Source of the DNA: Thiogranum sp. | Lineage (GTDB): Bacteria > Pseudomonadota > Gammaproteobacteria > DSM-19610 | Length of the DNA: 64,000 nucleotides | Assembly: GCA_030148805.1 (NCBI GenBank) | Contig: JASBSS010000020.1 | Span: forward strand, 1 to 64,000 | Reading direction: 5' to 3' | Part shown: one piece after another, positions 24,024 through 34,869 of the stretch | How the letters are laid out: the number at the start of each line of letters is the position of its first letter | How positions within the stretch are numbered: position 1 is the first letter of the stretch | Notes under the pieces: generated by a model | What the model was told of the DNA's origin: nothing | Seen by the model: only the letters and a program-made list of their open reading frames with translations | The model's database searches: none | Program-made: the position numbers and the translations under genes

Positions 24024-24767
24024 ATGGACTCGACGAATTGTCTTGAGGTGATCGACGCGGTTCTCGAGGCTGAAAGCGTGGATCGCCTGCACAGCATCTG
24101 TGCCAGCGTGTGCAGGGATCATGGGTTCGACCGCTTTATCTACGGGGCGCGCATTCCCACCTCTTTCGTCAAGCCGTACTTCATTTTCATCAGCGGCTAT
24201 CCACGGGAATGGCGCGAGCACTACAATGCGAACAACTACATGGTGATCGATCCCACCGTGCAGTACTGTGCGCAGAACATCACGCCGATGGCATGGGACG
24301 ACGGGCTGTTGCGTAGCGACTCCGGCGAGGTCCGCCGATTCATGAGCGAAGCGCGCGATTTCGGCCTCAACAGCGGGGTGAGTTTCCCCATCCACACGGC
24401 ACAAGGCGATTTTGCCATGTTGAGTTTCGCCAGCGACCGGCTGGAGGGGCAACAAGGCTGCATTCAGCGGGTGCTGCCCCTGGGTCAGTTGTTCGCCGCG
24501 TATCTGCATGAAGCGGTGCGGCGAATCTTCAACTCCGATGTTCTGGCCCTGGCGAAAGTGGACCTGACCCAGCGCGAGCGCGAGTGTCTGCTTTGGGCCA
24601 CGGAAGGCAAGACCGCCTGGGAAACGTCGCAGATACTGAACATCTCCGAACGCACGGTCACGTTTCATCTCCAGAACGTTCAGGGAAAACTTGGCGTCAA
24701 CAACCGCCAGCAGGCGGTGGCCCGAGCCGTTTCCCTGGGTATCATCGAACCTCAGTTCACGCAATGA
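24024..24767 (+). CDS. LuxR-family acyl-homoserine-lactone receptor
   Basis: This 247-residue regulator has an autoinducer-binding domain (about 10-160) and a C-terminal LuxR helix-turn-helix (LTQRERECLLWATEGKTAWE, ISERTVTFHLQNVQGKLGV). The residues that define AHL receptors are all present: Trp and Tyr in EWREHYNANNY, Asp-Pro in VIDPTV, Trp in MAWDD and Gly in NSGVSFP. It should therefore bind a signal rather than be a degenerate orphan. GAGAGAG precedes the ATG. A perfect palindrome TGTCCGGACA lies upstream (23977-23986). The synthase gene follows, and a lux-box-like palindrome separates them. Confidence 0.93.
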   Translation: MDSTNCLEVIDAVLEAESVDRLHSICASVCRDHGFDRFIYGARIPTSFVKPYFIFISGYPREWREHYNANNYMVIDPTVQYCAQNITPMAWDDGLLRSDSGEVRRFMSEARDFGLNSGVSFPIHTAQGDFAMLSFASDRLEGQQGCIQRVLPLGQLFAAYLHEAVRRIFNSDVLALAKVDLTQRERECLLWATEGKTAWETSQILNISERTVTFHLQNVQGKLGVNNRQQAVARAVSLGIIEPQFTQ

Positions 24768-24802
24768 CCTGAGCCCGATTCGGCATCCCCCTCCCGGCTG
24801 CA

Positions 24803-24822
24803 ACCTGTCATATCTGACAGTA
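24803..24822 (+). promoter_or_regulatory. lux box upstream of the AHL synthase gene
   Basis: The 20-base element ACCTGTCATATCTGACAGTA contains a perfect inverted repeat CTGTCA-N4-TGACAG, like LuxR-type operators. It sits 58 bases before the synthase ATG, so a start about 43 bases from its centre would give autoinduction by the adjacent receptor. Confidence 0.7.
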
Positions 24823-24879
24823 CCTGGCCCGGGCGATAAGCGATTAACTGCACTCTGTTTTAGCGACGGAGGGCACGTC

Positions 24880-25503
24880 ATGAGCGATATCGTATTGGCA
24901 GGCGGCAAGCTGCCGGGACTGGACGCCGGAACCCTGAGGGGCATGTTCGCGTTCCGCCACCGGGTGTTTTTCAACCGCCTCGGTTGGGAAGTGGACACCC
25001 GCGATGATCTGGAGTTCGACCTCTTCGACACCATGAATCCGGTATACATGCTGGCCAAGCGGCCCACGGGCAATATCGAGGGCTGCTGGCGACTGATGCC
25101 GACCACGGATGCCTATATGTTGCGGGATACCTTTCCGCAGCTGTTGCAGAACGACGCCGCGCCCAGCGACCCGCACATCTGGGAACTGAGCCGTTTCGCC
25201 GTGGACGCGTGCGGCGGGGAGGAGACTTCGCAGCAGGCGCCCCTGAACAGCGTCACCATGGAGATGATCCGCAAACTCTACGATTTCGCCCGGGAGAATG
25301 AAATCTCCCAATTCGTTACCGTCACCAGCGTGGCGCTGGAGAGGTTGCTGAAACGCACGGGTCTGCCCATACGCCGTTTCGGCAATGGCCGCGCGCAGAA
25401 GATCGGCAGAGTGCTGACCGTGGCCTGTTGGGTGGATATCAACCAGCAGTTCGCCGATGTCGTCTATCCGCCCACGCAGGATCTGCGCCACCGGGCGGCC
25501 TGA
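24880..25503 (+). CDS. LuxI-family acyl-homoserine-lactone synthase
   Basis: This 207-residue enzyme would join an acyl group to S-adenosylmethionine to make the quorum signal. The conserved LuxI positions can be read: R in MFAFRHRVFFNRLGW, the acidic residues D in EVDTRDDLEFDLFD, the segment GCWRLMPTTDAYML, and ELSRFAVD. CGGAGGG precedes the ATG at 24880. The acyl chain made cannot be predicted from sequence. It lies downstream of the receptor and its lux box, and two further genes follow closely. Confidence 0.93.
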   Translation: MSDIVLAGGKLPGLDAGTLRGMFAFRHRVFFNRLGWEVDTRDDLEFDLFDTMNPVYMLAKRPTGNIEGCWRLMPTTDAYMLRDTFPQLLQNDAAPSDPHIWELSRFAVDACGGEETSQQAPLNSVTMEMIRKLYDFARENEISQFVTVTSVALERLLKRTGLPIRRFGNGRAQKIGRVLTVACWVDINQQFADVVYPPTQDLRHRAA

Positions 25504-25513
25504 AGCCGACGTC

Positions 25514-25927
25514 ATGGAACAGCAGCGGATTTTGGTGTTAAGCAAGCGCCGCCAACCGCAGACGGATCTGCCCGTCTCGTTGTGCGGACGTTATCGGTTC
25601 ACCTATTGCGGCGGTGACGACCAGGCCCTTCTGGTAGCCAGCGAGCAGAGCCAACGCCGTTTCGATTGGATTTTGATCGATGGCGCGGGAATGGATGGGG
25701 ATGAAAAGGACTTTCTCCAGTCGCTGCGCGCAATAGGGCTTATTTTTGCCGAAGGTGAGCAGGGCCGTTCGTGCAAGGTGGAATGGGATGAGAACGGTAT
25801 CCTGCAATTGTGTTGTGCAAGGAGAAAGACGAGCGGAGAGAAGGGTGTTGCCGCTGCTGACAAGAGCAAGCAAACCATGGACGGTTTCGTCTTTGAGTTC
25901 CACGCGCCTATGGAAAGGGCGGGGTGA
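25514..25927 (+). CDS. Hypothetical protein in the quorum-sensing operon
   Basis: This 137-residue protein starts ten bases after the synthase gene and overlaps the next by four. The first half has an alternating strand-helix pattern, and RFDWILIDGAGMDGDEKDFL looks like a degenerate receiver-type strand, but no phosphorylation site set can be confirmed. Several cysteines occur (CGRYRFTYC, ILQLCCARR). No family is recognised. Its position suggests a role between the signal system and the GGDEF-EAL protein downstream. Confidence 0.6.
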   Translation: MEQQRILVLSKRRQPQTDLPVSLCGRYRFTYCGGDDQALLVASEQSQRRFDWILIDGAGMDGDEKDFLQSLRAIGLIFAEGEQGRSCKVEWDENGILQLCCARRKTSGEKGVAAADKSKQTMDGFVFEFHAPMERAG

Positions 25928-27288
25928 CAGCGTCGATGGATTTCAGACATATTTCGCTTTGGCAAGGGATCGATGCTGTCCAGCCACATTCCGCGACGCC
26001 GGAGAACAAGGAGTCGTCGGCGGAAAGCCGGGGGAGTCTGTGCAGCCTGCCCCAATTCCGCGATCGGCTGGATATCGCCATGCGCCGCTCAGCGCGCATG
26101 CACAAGTATGCGGTTTTCATTTTGTTGGAGTTCGCCCAGGAACACCTCAGGCTCGGGGGCGACGGGGAGGAGGAACAAGAGGGGGGATTGCTGATTTACC
26201 GGTTGCGCAGTTGCATCCGCTCCAGCGACAGTTTGTGCCGGCTCGGGGAGGGCCGCTTCGCGCTGCTGCTGGAGGATGTCAAGGAACCTACTGCGGTGCC
26301 ATTGATGATAGAGAAGATCGAGTCCACTTTGGTGGGGCCGCTGCACGCGCAGGCCGATGATCGACAAACTCTGCGCCCGAATGTGGCCGCCAGCCTTCTG
26401 CTGGGGAAGGCCCGCTCGGTGGCCAGGGTCTGGCTAGAGACCGAGGCCGCGTTGGAGATGGCGGTGATCGACGGACCGGGCCGTTATCGAATTCTGCCGC
26501 GGGAGCTCGGCCGTGAGGCGCTGTTGCGCTTTGATCTGGGTCGCGACATGCATCGGGCTTATCGCAACAAGGAATTCGATCTGAGCTACCAGCCGGTAGT
26601 CGGGCTTAGCGAACGCAGGCCGCGTGCGATAGAGGGGTTGCTTCGCTGGCAACATCCGCAGCGAGGCTGTCTGTATCCAGGGGTGTTCCTGCCGATGCTC
26701 GAGGAGAGCGGGCTGATCGTTCCGATCGGAGAGCAACTGCTGCTCCAGGCGTGTCGGAGCGGCCGGCGGTTGATTGGTGGCGGGCTCGGTCCGGTAAGGC
26801 TGGGAGTGAATATCTCCTTTCGTCAGCTGACCGATCCCGGGTTCATGCTCTGCGTGCTCGATGCCTTGTACGATAGCGGCCTGGCCGCGGAGTCGCTGCA
26901 GCTGGAATTTTCCGAGTCGGTGCTGACGCGCGACCTGCATCTGGTTCGACCGTTACTGGCCGAACTGGATCAGATCGGTATTGCGCTGGCGGTCGACCAG
27001 TTCGGTAGTGCCGGCATGCCGCTCAGTGTGTTGGCCGAATTGCCGCTGTCGGCCATCAAGTTTTCTCCCGCGGTGGTCAGGCGGCTGCCGAGCGATCCAG
27101 TGGCCCACGCCCTGGTCAGCGGTGCCATCGCCTTCGCCAGGGCGACCGGCAAGCGCGTCACCGCCGTGGGCGTGGAACAGTCGGCCGAGGAATGTCTGCT
27201 GGCGGAATTGGGCTGCGACGAGGCGCAAGGTGGCTATTATTTTCCACCGCAATCGGGTGCCTCGCTGATGCGCAGCCTGACGGGGTGA
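25924..27288 (+). CDS. Degenerate GGDEF-EAL domain protein
   Basis: This 454-residue cytoplasmic protein has a GGDEF-like region (about 45-190) and an EAL domain (about 205-450). The GGDEF signature is lost (RLGEGRFALLLED). In the EAL part, the EAL motif reads EGLLRW, the DDFGTG motif reads VDQFGSA, and the KID motif reads AIKFSP, while NISFRQL and LEFSES are preserved. Loss of several metal and substrate residues implies it does not make or cleave cyclic di-GMP; it more likely senses it or binds a partner. GTG 25924 overlaps the stop of the previous gene; ATG 25936 is an alternative. Confidence 0.85.
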   Translation: MTASMDFRHISLWQGIDAVQPHSATPENKESSAESRGSLCSLPQFRDRLDIAMRRSARMHKYAVFILLEFAQEHLRLGGDGEEEQEGGLLIYRLRSCIRSSDSLCRLGEGRFALLLEDVKEPTAVPLMIEKIESTLVGPLHAQADDRQTLRPNVAASLLLGKARSVARVWLETEAALEMAVIDGPGRYRILPRELGREALLRFDLGRDMHRAYRNKEFDLSYQPVVGLSERRPRAIEGLLRWQHPQRGCLYPGVFLPMLEESGLIVPIGEQLLLQACRSGRRLIGGGLGPVRLGVNISFRQLTDPGFMLCVLDALYDSGLAAESLQLEFSESVLTRDLHLVRPLLAELDQIGIALAVDQFGSAGMPLSVLAELPLSAIKFSPAVVRRLPSDPVAHALVSGAIAFARATGKRVTAVGVEQSAEECLLAELGCDEAQGGYYFPPQSGASLMRSLTG

Positions 27289-28431: not shown

Positions 28432-29091
28432 ATGGAGCAAAAACAAATCAGGGTAGTTCTGGCGGACCACCAGGAGCTGGTTCGTAGCGGCTTGCGGCGC
28501 CTGCTCGATGACGTGCCGGGCTTGTGTGTCGTCGGCGAGGTGGCGAACGGCGATGAAGTCATCGTCTGCGCGCGCGAGTTGAGACCGGCGGTCGTGTTGA
28601 TGGAAGCGCGCCTCCCGGGCATCGGTGGGTTGGAGGTCACGCGACGGCTGGTTCGCGCCCGTCAGGGCACCGGGGTTGTCGTCGTGATGCGCCGGGTCGA
28701 CGATCCGCTGCAATCGCAGTACCTGGAGGCGGGCGCCTCGGGTTGTCTGACCAAGCATTGCAGTATCGAGGAGATCGCCGACGCGGTGCGTGTGGTGGCG
28801 CGCGGAGAGCGCTATATCAGCGCCGATATCGCCAGGCAGATGGCGCTGTCGATGCTCCCCGGTAACGAACAATCGCCCTTCGACCGGTTGTCGGGGCGGG
28901 AAGTGCAGGTTCTGATGCTGGTGGCTCAGGGGCACAGCGTCCACGCGATTTCCGAGCGCCTTTGTCTGAGTTCCAAGACCGTCAGCACCTACCGCTACCG
29001 TTTGTTCGAGAAGCTGGGTGTCGGCAACGACGTGGAGCTGACCCGATTGGCGATTCGGCATGGCGTCGTGGAGACGGCACTGGATGCCTAG
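28432..29091 (+). CDS. GacA/UvrY-like regulator with altered receiver (Asp to Glu)
   Basis: This 219-residue protein aligns along its length with UvrY/GacA, including SPFDRLSGREVQVLMLVAQG, SSKTVSTYRYRLFEKLGV and DVELTRLAIRHGV. The receiver is degenerate: the phosphoacceptor Asp is Glu58 (VVLMEARLPGIGG), the first acidic residue of the usual pair is Ala11 (LADHQELVR), and the switch Thr is replaced by Arg (VVVMRRVDDP). The Lys (GCLTKH) remains. Glu at this site can mimic phosphorylation. ATG 28432 was chosen over an earlier in-frame start. It lies upstream of uvrC, as uvrY does in relatives. Confidence 0.88.
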   Translation: MEQKQIRVVLADHQELVRSGLRRLLDDVPGLCVVGEVANGDEVIVCARELRPAVVLMEARLPGIGGLEVTRRLVRARQGTGVVVVMRRVDDPLQSQYLEAGASGCLTKHCSIEEIADAVRVVARGERYISADIARQMALSMLPGNEQSPFDRLSGREVQVLMLVAQGHSVHAISERLCLSSKTVSTYRYRLFEKLGVGNDVELTRLAIRHGVVETALDA

Positions 29092-29193
29092 GCCGCTGAA
29101 TATAAAATAAAAGCACGGATATCTGCTGTTAAGTAAACGGATTTTCTGCCGCTTAGGCACCTACCATCTTTGTGCGGGCATGAATCTCTGTTT

Positions 29194-29874
29194 ATGGCGC
29201 TCTTACAGTCCTTTGTCACTGCTGCGGAAGGTCCGATCGAGGCGCTGCTGATCGATAGTCGGCAGTTGGTGCGCGCCGGCATGGGGCGTCTGTTGGCCGA
29301 TATGGCTCAGGTGGAGGTGGGTGCCAGTGTGGCGGATTTCGATGCCGCGATCCGCTGGGCGCGAACGCATGTTCCGCAACTGGTCCTGGTGAGCCTGCCC
29401 GGGGACGGGGTCGAGGTTCTCGATGGCGTGCGCAAGATGCGACGCCAGTTCGCGGACATCCGCTTGCTGATCGTCACCGATGAGTCGGATCTGCTGGTGC
29501 AGGAGCGTCTGCTGCAGTCCGGTGTGACCGGGATGCTGGAGGCCGATTGCTCGGTGGCCGAGTTGTACACCGCCATCGACACGGTGATCCGAGGAGATCG
29601 CTATATCAGTGACGCGTTGGCCCAGAAACTGGCGGAACGACGCGTGCCGGGGCGGGTGAACACACCCTTCGACCAGCTCACCCATCGCGAGCTGCAGATT
29701 CTGCTGCTGGTGGCCGCCGGTCACTCGACCGCTACCATGGCGCGCGAATTGTGTCTGACCCGCAAGACGGTGAACAGCTATCGCAATCGGTTGCTGGAAA
29801 AGCTGCAGGCGGACACCGACGTCGAATTGATGCATCTGGCGATGCGCCATGGACTGGTCAGCACGCCGCTGTGA
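29194..29874 (+). CDS. GacA/UvrY-like regulator with degenerate receiver (Asp to Ser)
   Basis: This 226-residue paralogue follows the previous gene by 102 bases. Its LuxR-type DNA-binding end is well kept (PFDQLTHRELQILLLVAAGH, LTRKTVNSYRNRLLEKL, DVELMHLAMRHGL). In the receiver the phosphoacceptor is Ser67 (LVLVSLPGDG) and the Lys is lost (GMLEADCS). It cannot be phosphorylated in the normal way. The ribosome site is weak at both ATG 29194 and the upstream TTG. Together the two genes look like a tandem duplication that drifted from phosphorylation control. Confidence 0.85.
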   Translation: MALLQSFVTAAEGPIEALLIDSRQLVRAGMGRLLADMAQVEVGASVADFDAAIRWARTHVPQLVLVSLPGDGVEVLDGVRKMRRQFADIRLLIVTDESDLLVQERLLQSGVTGMLEADCSVAELYTAIDTVIRGDRYISDALAQKLAERRVPGRVNTPFDQLTHRELQILLLVAAGHSTATMARELCLTRKTVNSYRNRLLEKLQADTDVELMHLAMRHGLVSTPL

Positions 29875-29982
29875 CAGTGCCACGGTCGACGGGGAAAACT
29901 TGAACCCGTTCGACGATTTAGCTGTGGATGATGTTAGTATTCGCGGCTAAGGGGCGCGTTGAGCGTTCGAGGAAGGGGACCG

Positions 29983-31425
29983 ATGACCGAGGCACCGAGA
30001 ATCCGGGCACCCGAGCTGCCCGCAAACCTGGACTGGTTCAATGTCTCGCAGCCGCTGACGCTGGCCGGCTTGCGGGGCAAGGTCGTGCTATTGGACTTCT
30101 GGACTTATTGCTGCATCAACTGCATGCATGTGCTGCCGGACCTGCGCTATCTGGAAAAGAAATATCCGACCACGTTGACGGTGATCGGCGTTCATTCGCC
30201 CAAATTCGAGAACGAGCGCGATCCGACACAGTTGCAGAAAGCCATCAATCGGTATCACATCCAACACCCGGTCGCCAACGATCCGGCCTTCCAGGTGTGG
30301 CGTGCCTATGGCATCAAGGCCTGGCCGTCGGTGATTTTCATCGACCCGGAGGGCTATGTGGTGGGGGTGTTGCGGGGCGAGGGAAGGCGTAAACAGCTCG
30401 ATGAGCTGATCAGCCAGCACACCCAGAGCGCGCGCGAGAAAGGCGTGCTGCGGGAGTCGAAAACCGTGCTCGCGCCCCGACCAGAGCCGTCGACGACATT
30501 GTCGTTTCCGGGCAAGGTGCTGGTCACCCGCGCCAGCCTGTATATCGCCGACAGTGGGCGCAACCGCATCGTTGAAACCCACCACGACGGCAGGATCAAG
30601 CGCGTCTTCGGCGGCGGCTCGGCCGGCATGCTCGACGCCCAGGGTAGCGAGGCGATGTTCGACAATCCTCAGGGCATGGTCGTGGTCGGTGATTTTCTCT
30701 ACGTGGCCGATGCCGGTAACCACGCCATTCGCCGCGTGCATTTGAAATCGGGCGAGGTGATGACCCTGGCCGGGACGGGCCGCCAGGGGCGCTATGTGGC
30801 TGATCATTTCCGCGACCCGCAGGAAGCCGAGCTCAATTCACCCTGGGATCTGGCCTACTACGACGGCAATCTTTATATCGCCATGGCCGGCCAGCATCAG
30901 ATCTGGCGGATCAACCTCAACCATCAGGCTATCGAGCGCTACGCGGGCTGCGGGCGGGAGGATATCGTGGACGGCCCCCTGGAGAGTGCCTGTTTCGCGC
31001 AACCCTCGGGGCTGGCGGCCCTGGACGAACGCCTGTTCGTGGCCGACGCGGAGACCTCGGCGGTGCGCGAGCTGGAAATCAACCGCCATGTCGTGAGCAC
31101 CCTGGTGGGCAAGGGTCTGTTTGATTTCGGTGATCGCAGCGGTGTCGGTCGCGAGGCGCGCTTGCAGCATCCCCTGGGAATCGCCGTGGATCCGGAGCGC
31201 AACGCCCTGTGGCTGGCCGATACCTATAATTCGAAAATCAAGCGGGTCGATGTGCGCACCCGTCAGGTGAGCACTTTCAAGATCGGCGCCCAACTCAACG
31301 AGCCGGGTGGCCTGAGTCGGTACCGCAATACCCTGTTCATCGCCGACACCAACAATCACCGGATCGTGGCGCTGGATCTGCATTCGCGGCATACCGAGAT
31401 CGTCAATGTGCGCGAGCAGGGCTAA
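29983..31425 (+). CDS. Thioredoxin-like domain plus NHL-repeat protein
   Basis: This 480-residue cytoplasmic protein begins with a thioredoxin-like domain (about 1-150) carrying WTYCCINCMHVLPDL, in which the active motif is CINC, and a cis-Pro in IKAWPSVIF. From about 165 an NHL beta-propeller follows, with repeated segments such as LYIADSGRNRIVE, LYVADAGNHAIRR, LWLADTYNSKIKR and LFIADTNNHRIVA. The layout matches NHLRC2-type proteins. Function is unknown; redox sensing or scaffolding is possible. GGAAGGGGA precedes the ATG at 29983. It overlaps the next gene by 20 bases. Confidence 0.88.
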   Translation: MTEAPRIRAPELPANLDWFNVSQPLTLAGLRGKVVLLDFWTYCCINCMHVLPDLRYLEKKYPTTLTVIGVHSPKFENERDPTQLQKAINRYHIQHPVANDPAFQVWRAYGIKAWPSVIFIDPEGYVVGVLRGEGRRKQLDELISQHTQSAREKGVLRESKTVLAPRPEPSTTLSFPGKVLVTRASLYIADSGRNRIVETHHDGRIKRVFGGGSAGMLDAQGSEAMFDNPQGMVVVGDFLYVADAGNHAIRRVHLKSGEVMTLAGTGRQGRYVADHFRDPQEAELNSPWDLAYYDGNLYIAMAGQHQIWRINLNHQAIERYAGCGREDIVDGPLESACFAQPSGLAALDERLFVADAETSAVRELEINRHVVSTLVGKGLFDFGDRSGVGREARLQHPLGIAVDPERNALWLADTYNSKIKRVDVRTRQVSTFKIGAQLNEPGGLSRYRNTLFIADTNNHRIVALDLHSRHTEIVNVREQG

Positions 31426-32059
31426 AAGCGTTTTCGATCCGCACTGCAAGCGCTGCCCCAGGCTCAGTGGCTTCCTCGCCCAGGTGGCGCGTGAACACCC
31501 CGGTTACCATGCCGCGCCGGTGCCGGCATTCGGCGATCCGCGAGCCCGGCTGCTGATCGTGGGGCTGGCGCCCGGCATGCATGGTGCCAACCGTACCGGC
31601 CGTCCTTTTACCGGCGATTATGCCGGGATTCTGCTCTACCAGACCTTGTACGATTTCGGCTTCGCCAGCAGACCGGTTTCGGAGGCGGCCGACGACGGAC
31701 TGCGGTTGCACAATTGCCGGATCTCCAACGCGGTGAAATGCCTGCCGCCGCAAAACAAGCCGGAGACGGCGGAAATCCGTGCCTGCAATGGTTTTTTACA
31801 CGCCGAACTCGAGGCGTTGTCCGCAGGTGCCGTAGTGCTCGCCCTGGGGAAAATCGCCCACGATGCCGTGCTCCGGGCCCATGGCCTGCCGCTTTCGGCC
31901 CACCGTTTCGCGCACGCGGCCGAGCACCGGTTGGAGCGCCACCTGTTGCTCGATTCCTACCACTGCAGTCGCTACAACACCCAGACCCGCCGTCTCACCC
32001 CGGAGATGTTCCGCGCCGTGATCGCGCGGGCGCGGGCGTTGTTGGACGCCCCGGCCTGA
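31406..32059 (+). CDS. Type-5 (UDGb-like) uracil-DNA glycosylase
   Basis: This 217-residue protein fits the iron-sulfur uracil-DNA glycosylases of family 5. Motif A reads VGLAPGMHGANRTGRPFTGD, lacking the usual catalytic Asp or Asn as in UDGb, and motif B reads SYHCSRYNTQTRRLT. Cluster cysteines are visible in PHCKRCPRL near the N-terminus and in HNCRISNAVKC. It excises deaminated or damaged bases during repair. The start GTG 31406 overlaps the preceding gene. It stands directly before uvrC, suggesting a DNA-repair group. Confidence 0.88.
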   Translation: MCASRAKSVFDPHCKRCPRLSGFLAQVAREHPGYHAAPVPAFGDPRARLLIVGLAPGMHGANRTGRPFTGDYAGILLYQTLYDFGFASRPVSEAADDGLRLHNCRISNAVKCLPPQNKPETAEIRACNGFLHAELEALSAGAVVLALGKIAHDAVLRAHGLPLSAHRFAHAAEHRLERHLLLDSYHCSRYNTQTRRLTPEMFRAVIARARALLDAPA

Positions 32060-32071
32060 TATAATCCCGCC

Positions 32072-33907
32072 ATGGACAGGGCGGAACCGACGGCGGAGTT
32101 CAACAGCGAGGATTTTCTGCGCACCCTCAGTTCGCGCCCCGGCGTCTATCGCATGCTGAACACGGCGGGTGAAATTCTCTATGTCGGCAAGGCGCGCAAC
32201 TTGAAAAAACGGGTGGCGAGCTATTTCCGCAAATCCGGTCTGGCGCCCAAGACCCACGCCCTGATGCAGCAGATGGCCAGGGTGGAAGTCACGCTGACCC
32301 ATACCGAAGCCGAAGCGTTGATACTGGAAAACACGCTGATAAAAAAGCACCGGCCGCGTTATAACGTGCTGTTGCGCGATGACAAAAGTTACCCATTTAT
32401 CTATTTGAGCAGCGCGGACGACTTTCCGCGTCTGTCCGTGCACCGTGGTGCCCGGCGCAAAAAAGGGCGTTACTTTGGCCCCTATCCCAGCGCCGGTGCG
32501 GTGCGCGAAACCCTGCATTTATTGCAGAAAACCTTTCGCGTCAGGCAATGCGAGGACAGTTTTTTCCGTAACCGCAGCCGGCCCTGTCTCCAGTACCAGA
32601 TCAAACGTTGTACCGCGCCCTGTGTGGGTCTTGTCGGGCGCCAGGAGTATGCCGAGGACGTCCGCCATACCCTGCTGTTCCTGGAAGGCAAAAGCAGCAC
32701 CCTGAGCGAGGAGCTGGCCGCCCGCATGGAGGCGGCCGCCAAGCGGCTGGATTATGAGGCCGCGGCGTTGTATCGCGACCAGATCGCCAGCGTGAGCCGG
32801 GTGCAGGAGCGCCAATACGTGGTGGGCGAGTCGGGCGACATGGACATTCTCGCCTGTGTGATTTCCGCGGGCGTGGCCTGTGTACAGATATTTTTCATCC
32901 GTCACGGGGTCAACCTGGGCAACAAGCTATTTTTTCCGCGTATCCCTGCCGACAGCGATGCCGGGGACGTGTTGTCGGCGTTCGTCGCGCAGTACTATCT
33001 GGAGCATCCTGTCCCGACGGCGCTGTTGACCAGCCATCCCCTGGAGGACAAGGCGCTGTTGCAGCAGGTGCTGAGCGAGCGTAGCGGGCGCAAAGTGGCG
33101 CTGCTGCACGGCGTGCGGGGCGAGAAGGCGCGCTGGCTGGCGCTGGGTGTCGTCAACGCCGAACAGGCGTTGCAGGCGAGACTCGGCAGCCAGGCCGGCG
33201 TGCGGCAACGGCTGCTCATGCTGCAGGACGTCCTGCGGCTGGAGGATACGCCGGACCGGTTGGAGTGCTTCGACATCAGTCACACCCAGGGCGAGGGTAC
33301 GGTGGCTTCGTGTGTGGTCTTCGACCGGGAAGGGGCGCGCAAGAGTGACTACCGTCGTTTCAACATCCGCGATATCGCCGCGGGGGACGATTACGCCGCC
33401 ATGGAACAGGCGCTGCTGCGCCGTTATACCCGGCTCAAGAAAGACGAGGCGCGGCTGCCTGGCGTGTTGTTCATCGACGGCGGCAAGGGTCAGGTCAATG
33501 TGGCCTGCCGGGTTCTGGAAGAGTTGCAGATCGAGGAAATCCTGGTGGTAGGCGTGGCCAAGGGCGCTGAGCGCAGGCCGGGCCTGGAAGTGCTGCATAT
33601 CCCCGCGCAGACGCGCACCCTGGAGCTCGACGGCGCATCGCCGGCACTGCATCTGATCCAGCAGATCCGCGACGAGGCGCATCGCTTCGCCATCACCGGG
33701 CACCGTCAACGCCGTGCGCGCGCGCGGCGCGAATCCAGTCTCGAGAGTATTCCCGGTATCGGGCCCCGCCGCCGCCAGAATCTGTTGAAACAATTCGGCG
33801 GCCTGCAGGAAGTGGCGCGCGCCGGGGTGGACGACCTGCACAAAGTGCCGGGCATCAGTCGCGAGCTGGCGCAGCAGATCTATGATACCTTTCACGGCGA
33901 CAATTGA
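32072..33907 (+). CDS. uvrC: UvrABC excinuclease subunit C
   Basis: This 611-residue nuclease makes both incisions in nucleotide excision repair. Domains in order: GIY-YIG nuclease (PGVYRMLNTAGEILYVGKAR), cysteine-rich region (CLQYQIKRCTAPCVG), UvrB-binding motif (KRLDYEAAALYRDQI), RNase-H-like endonuclease (LECFDISHTQGEGTVASCVV, LFIDGGKGQVN), and helix-hairpin-helix tail (ESIPGIGPRRRQNLLKQFGG). Length is normal. It begins 12 bases after the glycosylase gene and is followed at once by pgsA, the usual gammaproteobacterial order. Confidence 0.98.
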   Translation: MDRAEPTAEFNSEDFLRTLSSRPGVYRMLNTAGEILYVGKARNLKKRVASYFRKSGLAPKTHALMQQMARVEVTLTHTEAEALILENTLIKKHRPRYNVLLRDDKSYPFIYLSSADDFPRLSVHRGARRKKGRYFGPYPSAGAVRETLHLLQKTFRVRQCEDSFFRNRSRPCLQYQIKRCTAPCVGLVGRQEYAEDVRHTLLFLEGKSSTLSEELAARMEAAAKRLDYEAAALYRDQIASVSRVQERQYVVGESGDMDILACVISAGVACVQIFFIRHGVNLGNKLFFPRIPADSDAGDVLSAFVAQYYLEHPVPTALLTSHPLEDKALLQQVLSERSGRKVALLHGVRGEKARWLALGVVNAEQALQARLGSQAGVRQRLLMLQDVLRLEDTPDRLECFDISHTQGEGTVASCVVFDREGARKSDYRRFNIRDIAAGDDYAAMEQALLRRYTRLKKDEARLPGVLFIDGGKGQVNVACRVLEELQIEEILVVGVAKGAERRPGLEVLHIPAQTRTLELDGASPALHLIQQIRDEAHRFAITGHRQRRARARRESSLESIPGIGPRRRQNLLKQFGGLQEVARAGVDDLHKVPGISRELAQQIYDTFHGDN

Positions 33908-33920
33908 GGCGCGGTTTCCC

Positions 33921-34487
33921 ATGCCCTGGACCATACCGAATATACTGACCCTGCTGCGCATCGCGCTGATTCCGGTATTCGTGCTGGTCTATTATCTGCC
34001 GCTGTCCTGGGCGCATCTCCTGACCACGGCGATTTTCGGTCTGGCGGCCTTGACCGACTGGTTCGATGGCTATCTTGCGCGGCGGTTGGGGCAATCCTCG
34101 CCGTTTGGCGCTTTTCTCGACCCCGTCGCCGACAAGCTGATGGTCGCGGCGGCATTGATCATGCTGGTGCAAAGCAATCCCTCGCCCTGGTTCGTGGTGC
34201 CGGCCACGGTCATTGTCGGACGGGAGATCGTCGTCTCGGCACTGCGCGAATGGATGGCGGAAATCGGCGAACGCGCGCAGGTGGCGGTATCGCTGATCGG
34301 TAAGATAAAAACCACGGCGCAGATGATCGCGCTGTTGTTGTTGTTGTATCGACAGGACATCTGGGGCTTGCCGACGCACGCGATCGGAGTGGTGCTTTTG
34401 TATCTCGCCGCGGCGCTGACCCTGTGGTCCATGATGATTTATCTGCGGGCCGCCTGGCCGCTGTTATCGTCGACGGAAAATCCCTGA
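33921..34487 (+). CDS. pgsA: CDP-diacylglycerol-glycerol-3-phosphate 3-phosphatidyltransferase
   Basis: This 188-residue inner-membrane enzyme makes phosphatidylglycerol phosphate. The CDP-alcohol phosphatidyltransferase signature is clear at about 45-70: D-x2-D-G-x2-A-R and S-x2-G-x3-D-x3-D in LTDWFDGYLARRLGQSS and FGAFLDPVADKL. ATG 33921 gives the family N-terminus PWTIPNILTLLRI; an in-frame ATG at 33882 lies within uvrC. It starts 14 bases after uvrC and is followed by a tRNA cluster. Confidence 0.96.
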   Translation: MPWTIPNILTLLRIALIPVFVLVYYLPLSWAHLLTTAIFGLAALTDWFDGYLARRLGQSSPFGAFLDPVADKLMVAAALIMLVQSNPSPWFVVPATVIVGREIVVSALREWMAEIGERAQVAVSLIGKIKTTAQMIALLLLLYRQDIWGLPTHAIGVVLLYLAAALTLWSMMIYLRAAWPLLSSTENP

Positions 34488-34548: not shown

Positions 34549-34624
34549 GCGGGAATAGCTCAGTTGGTAGAGCACAACCTTGCCAAGGTTGGGGTCGCGA
34601 GTTCGAATCTCGTTTCCCGCTCCA
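34549..34624 (+). tRNA. tRNA-Gly (anticodon GCC)
   Basis: Acceptor GCGGGAA pairs with TTCCCGC, the anticodon stem CAACC/GGTTG closes the loop TTGCCAA with anticodon GCC, and the T-arm has GTTCGAATC. CCA is encoded. First of three tRNA genes behind uvrC-pgsA. Confidence 0.97.
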
Positions 34625-34646
34625 AATATGCCGACCCAGAAGAACG

Positions 34647-34673
34647 ACCTCGGTTTTTCGGCCGGGGTTTTTT
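34647..34673 (+). terminator. Intrinsic terminator inside the tRNA cluster
   Basis: ACCTCGG (34647-34653) pairs with CCGGGGT (34662-34668, one T-G wobble) over an eight-base loop, followed by six T. It lies between tRNA-Gly and tRNA-Cys, so the latter two need readthrough or another promoter. Confidence 0.65.
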
Positions 34674-34694
34674 CGCTTCTGGGGCTCCTTTTCT

Positions 34695-34768
34695 GGCTGG
34701 GTGGCAGAGTGGCTATGCAGCGGATTGCAAATCCGTGTACCTCGGTTCGACTCCGGGCCCAGCCTCCA
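34695..34768 (+). tRNA. tRNA-Cys (anticodon GCA)
   Basis: Acceptor GGCTGGG pairs with CCCAGCC, the anticodon loop TTGCAAA carries GCA, and the T-arm has GGTTCGACTCC. CCA is encoded. It lies 14 bases before tRNA-Leu. Confidence 0.96.
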
Positions 34769-34782
34769 TGTCGTTTTCTGCC

Positions 34783-34869
34783 GCCCGGGTGGCGAAATTG
34801 GTAGACGCAAGGGACTTAAAATCCCTCGGTGGCGACACCGTGCCGGTTCGATTCCGGCTCCGGGCACCA
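34783..34869 (+). tRNA. tRNA-Leu (anticodon TAA)
   Basis: An 87-base class II tRNA. Acceptor GCCCGGG pairs with TCCGGGC with one wobble, the anticodon loop CTTAAAA carries TAA, the variable arm is CGGTGGCGACACCG, and the T-arm has GGTTCGATTCC. CCA is encoded. Confidence 0.96.

Follow-up and report, generated by a model that had tools for sequence, protein, structure and literature searches.

Tandem GacA-type regulators lacking the phosphoacceptor aspartate in a bacterial genus with apparent loss of the GacS/BarA kinase

GacA is a global regulator familiar from textbooks and is assumed to require phosphorylation by GacS. Receivers without the phosphoacceptor Asp make up ~4% of all receivers (Maule 2015; PMC4395418), and pseudo-receivers in the wider sense account for ~6% in a bacterial set (PMC4395418; Bourret 2025, PMC12632262). 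In such aspartate-less receivers, the second acid is often lost and the usual replacements of Asp are Glu, Asn, and Ser (PMC4395418; PMC12632262). Models of receiver action without phosphorylation include heterodimers such as BldM-WhiI (PMC12632262). For GacA-type regulators, both UvrY D54A and D54E complemented in Aeromonas dhakensis (PMC7250320). Among the titles and abstracts listed in searches of open-licence papers, none mentions a natural GacA lacking either GacS or the Asp.

The locus described here lies in a window of 64,000 nucleotides, the whole stretch of DNA analyzed, from a 38-contig, 96% complete assembly (G000) of a marine sulfur-oxidizer-like bacterium whose near relatives in GTDB are titled Thiogranum or Thiohalobacter sp.. 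Two open reading frames stand in tandem on the + strand. The first, c1 (28432..29091), runs from an ATG at 28432 to a stop ending at 29091 and encodes 219 amino acids, its start being supported by a conserved leader, AACCACAAGGA..GAGGGTTATG. The second, c2 (29194..29874), has its preferred start, as aligned to orthologues, at the ATG at 29194 and encodes 226 amino acids. Pfam identifies Response_reg and GerE domains in both, and AlphaFold models from shallow alignments have a complete (beta-alpha)5 receiver plus an HTH, with mean pLDDT of 86.7 for c1 and 79.0 for c2. The LuxR-type DNA-binding end of c1 and its counterpart in c2 are thus intact, in agreement with an earlier note on this DNA. 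The top NCBIfam model for both is NF007018 (UvrY/SirA/GacA), at 242 bits for c1 and 163 bits for c2, each under the cut-off of 280 bits, and the description of the two as tandem GacA/UvrY-type paralogues is borne out. A GacA-family profile search of G000 placed c1 far ahead as the best match, with no protein, c1 included, reaching the NF007018 cut-off; the suggested check for a normal GacA elsewhere in the genome therefore found none.

In enteric bacteria, uvrC is followed by pgsA and then by tRNA-Gly, -Cys, and -Leu. Downstream of the pair, also on the + strand, are a gene for a thioredoxin-like and NHL-repeat protein (29959..31425), conserved between the pair and uvrC, a family-4-like uracil-DNA glycosylase (UDG; 31406..32059), and the synteny anchors uvrC (32072..33907) and pgsA (33882..34487, identified by its sequence), after which come tRNA-Gly, tRNA-Cys, and tRNA-Leu (34549-34869). 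This downstream order of UDG, uvrC, pgsA, and tRNAs indicates that c1 occupies the uvrY/gacA position. The earlier placement upstream of uvrC was therefore correct, if loose, as the thioredoxin/NHL and UDG genes intervene. The c1-c2 pair is syntenic in 12 further genomes, and orthologues in relatives rule out chance or misreading of the pair. By uvrC-pgsA synteny and by tree, c1 alone is a GacA/UvrY orthologue. Some 3 kb upstream of c1 are an EAL protein and a quorum-sensing pair of the LuxR/LuxI acyl-homoserine-lactone type (24024-25500 and 25924-27288, both +), in an order common to G014 (L187) and G003 (L194) and absent from the rest of the genus mates with upstream DNA that was read.

At the phosphoacceptor position, codon reading and orthologue alignment give Glu in c1 (codon 58, GAA; 28603..28605, +) and Ser in c2 (codon 67, AGC; 29392..29394, +), just as the earlier note had read them, making phosphorylation via that site impossible. 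Both proteins are accordingly aspartate-less receivers, or pseudo-receivers, defined as receiver domains without a phosphorylatable Asp. The further changes claimed for the two receivers are also seen in the alignment. c1 retains D12 and K108, with H13 replacing the second metal-binding acid, M86 in place of the switch Thr, and C105 in place of the beta-5 aromatic; c2 has D21, S22 for the second acid, T95, and Ala for the conserved Lys. The GacA/UvrY pocket set of phosphoacceptor Asp, two acids, Thr, and Lys is complete in neither.

The cognate kinase is tripartite, and its presence was assessed both at its usual locus and by its sensor. In G020, from the next family sampled, a complete BarA (HAMP, HisKA, HATPase, REC, and Hpt) adjoins cysM and rumA, and BarA is near cysM in G018 and G019 (same family as the genus), G033, G040, and G053 as well. 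No BarA lies beside cysM in any of the eight genus genomes with readable context; seven of them have a PAS-GGDEF diguanylate cyclase gene in the cysM interval (e.g., L274:10086-11078), and in G005 cysM directly adjoins pdxJ. A profile built on the BarA sensor plus HAMP region recovered BarA in at least 10 non-genus genomes, with scores as low as ~150 bits (and 71 in one case), and matched no BarA kinase in the 17 genus genomes, G000 included, the genomes compared being mostly incomplete bins. The good matches within the genus (158 to 182 bits) are PAS-GGDEF-EAL proteins where read far enough, and BarA-like sensor matches in eight family genomes were rejected as a kept kinase on the same grounds. 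These BarA-type sCache_4-HAMP sensors on PAS-GGDEF-EAL proteins occur in genomes without BarA (G000 C17:127147 [L327], L322-L326, L328, and L329; the L325 copy is a fragment). In G000, the full-length BarA model scores no higher than 259 bits, its match being the catalytic core of a CheR-PAS hybrid kinase. From the absence at the canonical locus and the sensor search, we infer that GacS/BarA was lost in the genus. In G017, a 99% complete genome of the sister genus, there is no GacA above ~163 bits and no BarA kinase, possibly a loss of the whole pair.

To date the receiver changes, key residues were compared in 13 genus c1 copies (plus one fragment) and 14 c2 copies. The c1-c2 pair extends beyond the genus to one sister genus (G018 and G019), and G020 has c1 only. 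A GTDB search with a c2 profile returned 65 loci, among which c2 is confined to the genus and its sister-genus relatives, the remaining loci each having a single GacA-type protein nearer to c1. Phylogenetically, the genus c1 proteins form one group and the c2 proteins another, each with full support. The c2 phosphosite is never Asp in the 14 copies, sister genus included (Asn in eight; Ser, His, and Gly in two each), implying that the c2 Asp loss predates the genus. As the Lys and the second acid are still present in c2 of G018, both were lost later than the Asp. The order differs for c1, where position 13, that of the second acid, is occupied by His or Gln in 13 of 13 readable genus copies and by Asp in G018 and G020, while the phosphosite is Asp in 10 of the 13, Glu in G000 and its sister G014, which also share Thr86Met, and Ala in G013, whose c1 sits on a long branch. 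Since G000 and G014 group beside the Asp-bearing G003, and G013 has Ala, there were at least two Asp losses in c1; judging from the alignment, these came on a receiver already without its metal site. Dating by orthologue alignment, as the earlier note had proposed, thus supports the absence of Asp from both copies, not a single event: the c2 loss is ancient and that of c1 recent. This history of stepwise Asp and second-acid loss is new.

Between G000 and G014, dN/dS is 0.08 for the receiver and 0.02 for the HTH of c1, and 0.12 and 0.08, respectively, for those of c2; both genes are under purifying selection. It is highly improbable that c1 and c2 are decaying pseudogenes on their way out, as frames are open in at least 12 species, dN/dS is far under 1 in both domains, and leader and synteny are conserved, although the long branch of G013 c1 and the disrupted c2 of G005 fit such decay. 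In the latter (L081, ~2574-2880), the start of the receiver is followed by an internal loss and a frame change, indicating that c2 can be dispensed with.

The retention of Asp58, Thr86, and Lys108 in most genus mates would instead suit a scenario in which GacS gave way to a different hybrid kinase, one that phosphorylates c1 in species with Asp58, and the window lineage is a recent exception. Hpt-bearing hybrid kinases are indeed present in the genus, but the second acid, which binds the metal directly, is missing genus-wide, and c1 of G000 and G014 is strongly constrained rather than decaying. We consider this replacement rather doubtful for the genus, and it cannot apply to the window species, given Glu58.

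It had been suggested earlier that one of the two regulators may be constitutively active-like, which is questionable for c1 with Glu58, as the second acid and the switch Thr and beta-5 aromatic of the Y-T coupling are lost as well. In a closely related proposal, Glu58 is a natural phosphomimic that locks c1 on, so that Gac output is permanent and c2 competes in the off state. Among aspartate-less receivers, Asp is most often replaced by Glu, which can mimic phosphorylation in some regulators, although Asp-to-Glu alone often fails to activate (PMC4395418). Glu also recurs at the phosphosite in four unrelated Pseudomonadales bins (L241, L243, L244, and L251), each with a single, uvrC-linked GacA, and in two of them the second acid is lost; Asp is retained in L238 and L242, which belong to the same broad group. 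However, canonical switching-on depends on the metal site and on Tyr-Thr coupling, where c1 has H13, M86, and C105, and the Ala variant in G013 offers no mimicry. With the parts needed to transmit it gone, mimicry by Glu58 is less likely, and we regard the phosphomimic as improbable. The recurrence itself is the most interesting lead, as the sequences suggest that the Asp-to-Glu change in GacA has arisen repeatedly.

On the output side, CsrA is retained in most genus mates. The csrA of G000 falls in an assembly gap, the alaS-lysC-csrA region being unassembled; CsrA loss in G000 was rejected because alaS is absent too and, in relatives, csrA follows lysC downstream of alaS. The G014 contig ends inside lysC. 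A scan of G000 for the Gac box pattern TGTAAG-N6-CTTACA gave just two sites at one mismatch, neither with a GGA cluster, and at two mismatches the reversed control outnumbers the pattern. Exact Gac boxes occur in the BarA-bearing G018 and G019. At L363 (G019 C70), a Gac box with one mismatch precedes a TATAAT-like -10 and a GGA-rich stretch; this candidate for an Rsm-type sRNA matched no known family in Rfam. L362 (G018 C43) was read alongside it. In several relatives, the c1-c2 gap (window 29100-29160 and equivalents) contains a TGTAAG/TGTAGG half-site, which the window species lacks. The Gac box scans found no clear Gac-controlled sRNA in the genus, and the targets of c1 presumably lie in the Csr pathway.

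The explanation we favor, with moderate confidence, is that, once GacS was lost, the GacA receiver was free to decay, leaving a regulator that works independently of phosphorylation alongside an older paralogue that is itself without the Asp. The tandem paralogue c2 would have shed its phosphoacceptor before the origin of the genus, and GacS/BarA would have been lost in the genus. Freed from phosphotransfer, the c1 receiver may first have given up the second metal-binding acid (His/Gln13 throughout the genus) and afterwards, in the window lineage, its Asp (to Glu), switch Thr, and aromatic. What remains would be a receiver-shaped dimerization domain on a conserved DNA-binding domain, with c1 keeping GacA-type promoter binding, set by protein amount, and c2 acting as its modulator, either at sites of the same class or as a heterodimer with c1. 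Most likely, c1 and c2 act without phosphorylation; kinase loss as the cause of receiver decay, the c1-c2 interaction, and control by protein amount are predictions of this explanation. Against it, several genus mates keep Asp58, Thr86, and Lys108, and some phosphorylation is possible there. The Hpt hybrid kinases of G001 and G004 group loosely with BarA in a kinase-core tree whose resolution is too poor to place them, and most genomes are incomplete bins, with csrA itself in a gap of G000. The lack of a clear Gac-controlled sRNA in the genus and the broken c2 of G005 also count against it.

More speculatively, and only as a tentative possibility, GacA may repeatedly escape its kinase, with GacS loss, stepwise receiver decay, and a kinase-free Gac-Csr pathway controlled by how much protein is made and by a partner without the Asp; cyclic-di-GMP enzymes would take over sensory input (the PAS-GGDEF beside cysM and the BarA-type sensor on PAS-GGDEF-EAL proteins). 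The dated series, which starts from a BarA-bearing sister genus whose GacA is normal and passes through genus mates with Asp and no second acid to two lineages without Asp, makes the origin and functional upkeep of pseudo-receivers testable within one protein family. It would also caution against annotating such genomes with a working GacS/GacA system.

Compared with GacS/GacA (BarA/UvrY)-Csr/Rsm, the locus has an orthologous c1 (tree and uvrC-pgsA-tRNA synteny) with a conserved HTH, in a genus that keeps csrA. It differs in the missing phosphoacceptor Asp of the window species, the genus-wide loss of the second acid, the absence of BarA from its usual locus, and the extra Asp-less tandem paralogue. 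Like the pseudo-receivers RitR, ChxR, and FrzS, the pair keeps the REC fold with Asp changed to Glu, Ser, or Asn and the second acid lost, a combination given there as typical (PMC4395418; PMC12632262), whereas the c1 receiver is part of a familiar regulator that is normally under kinase control, and the loss can be dated across sister species. Aeromonas dhakensis UvrY D54A and D54E set a precedent for a GacA-type regulator working without the Asp, but these mutants were engineered, their receiver is otherwise intact, and the species has BarA (PMC7250320). The Streptomyces BldM-WhiI heterodimer, in which a phosphorylation-independent regulator joins an atypical partner, may serve as a model for c1-c2 (PMC12632262), with the difference that BldM and WhiI are actinobacterial proteins and the c1-c2 interaction is a predicted one.
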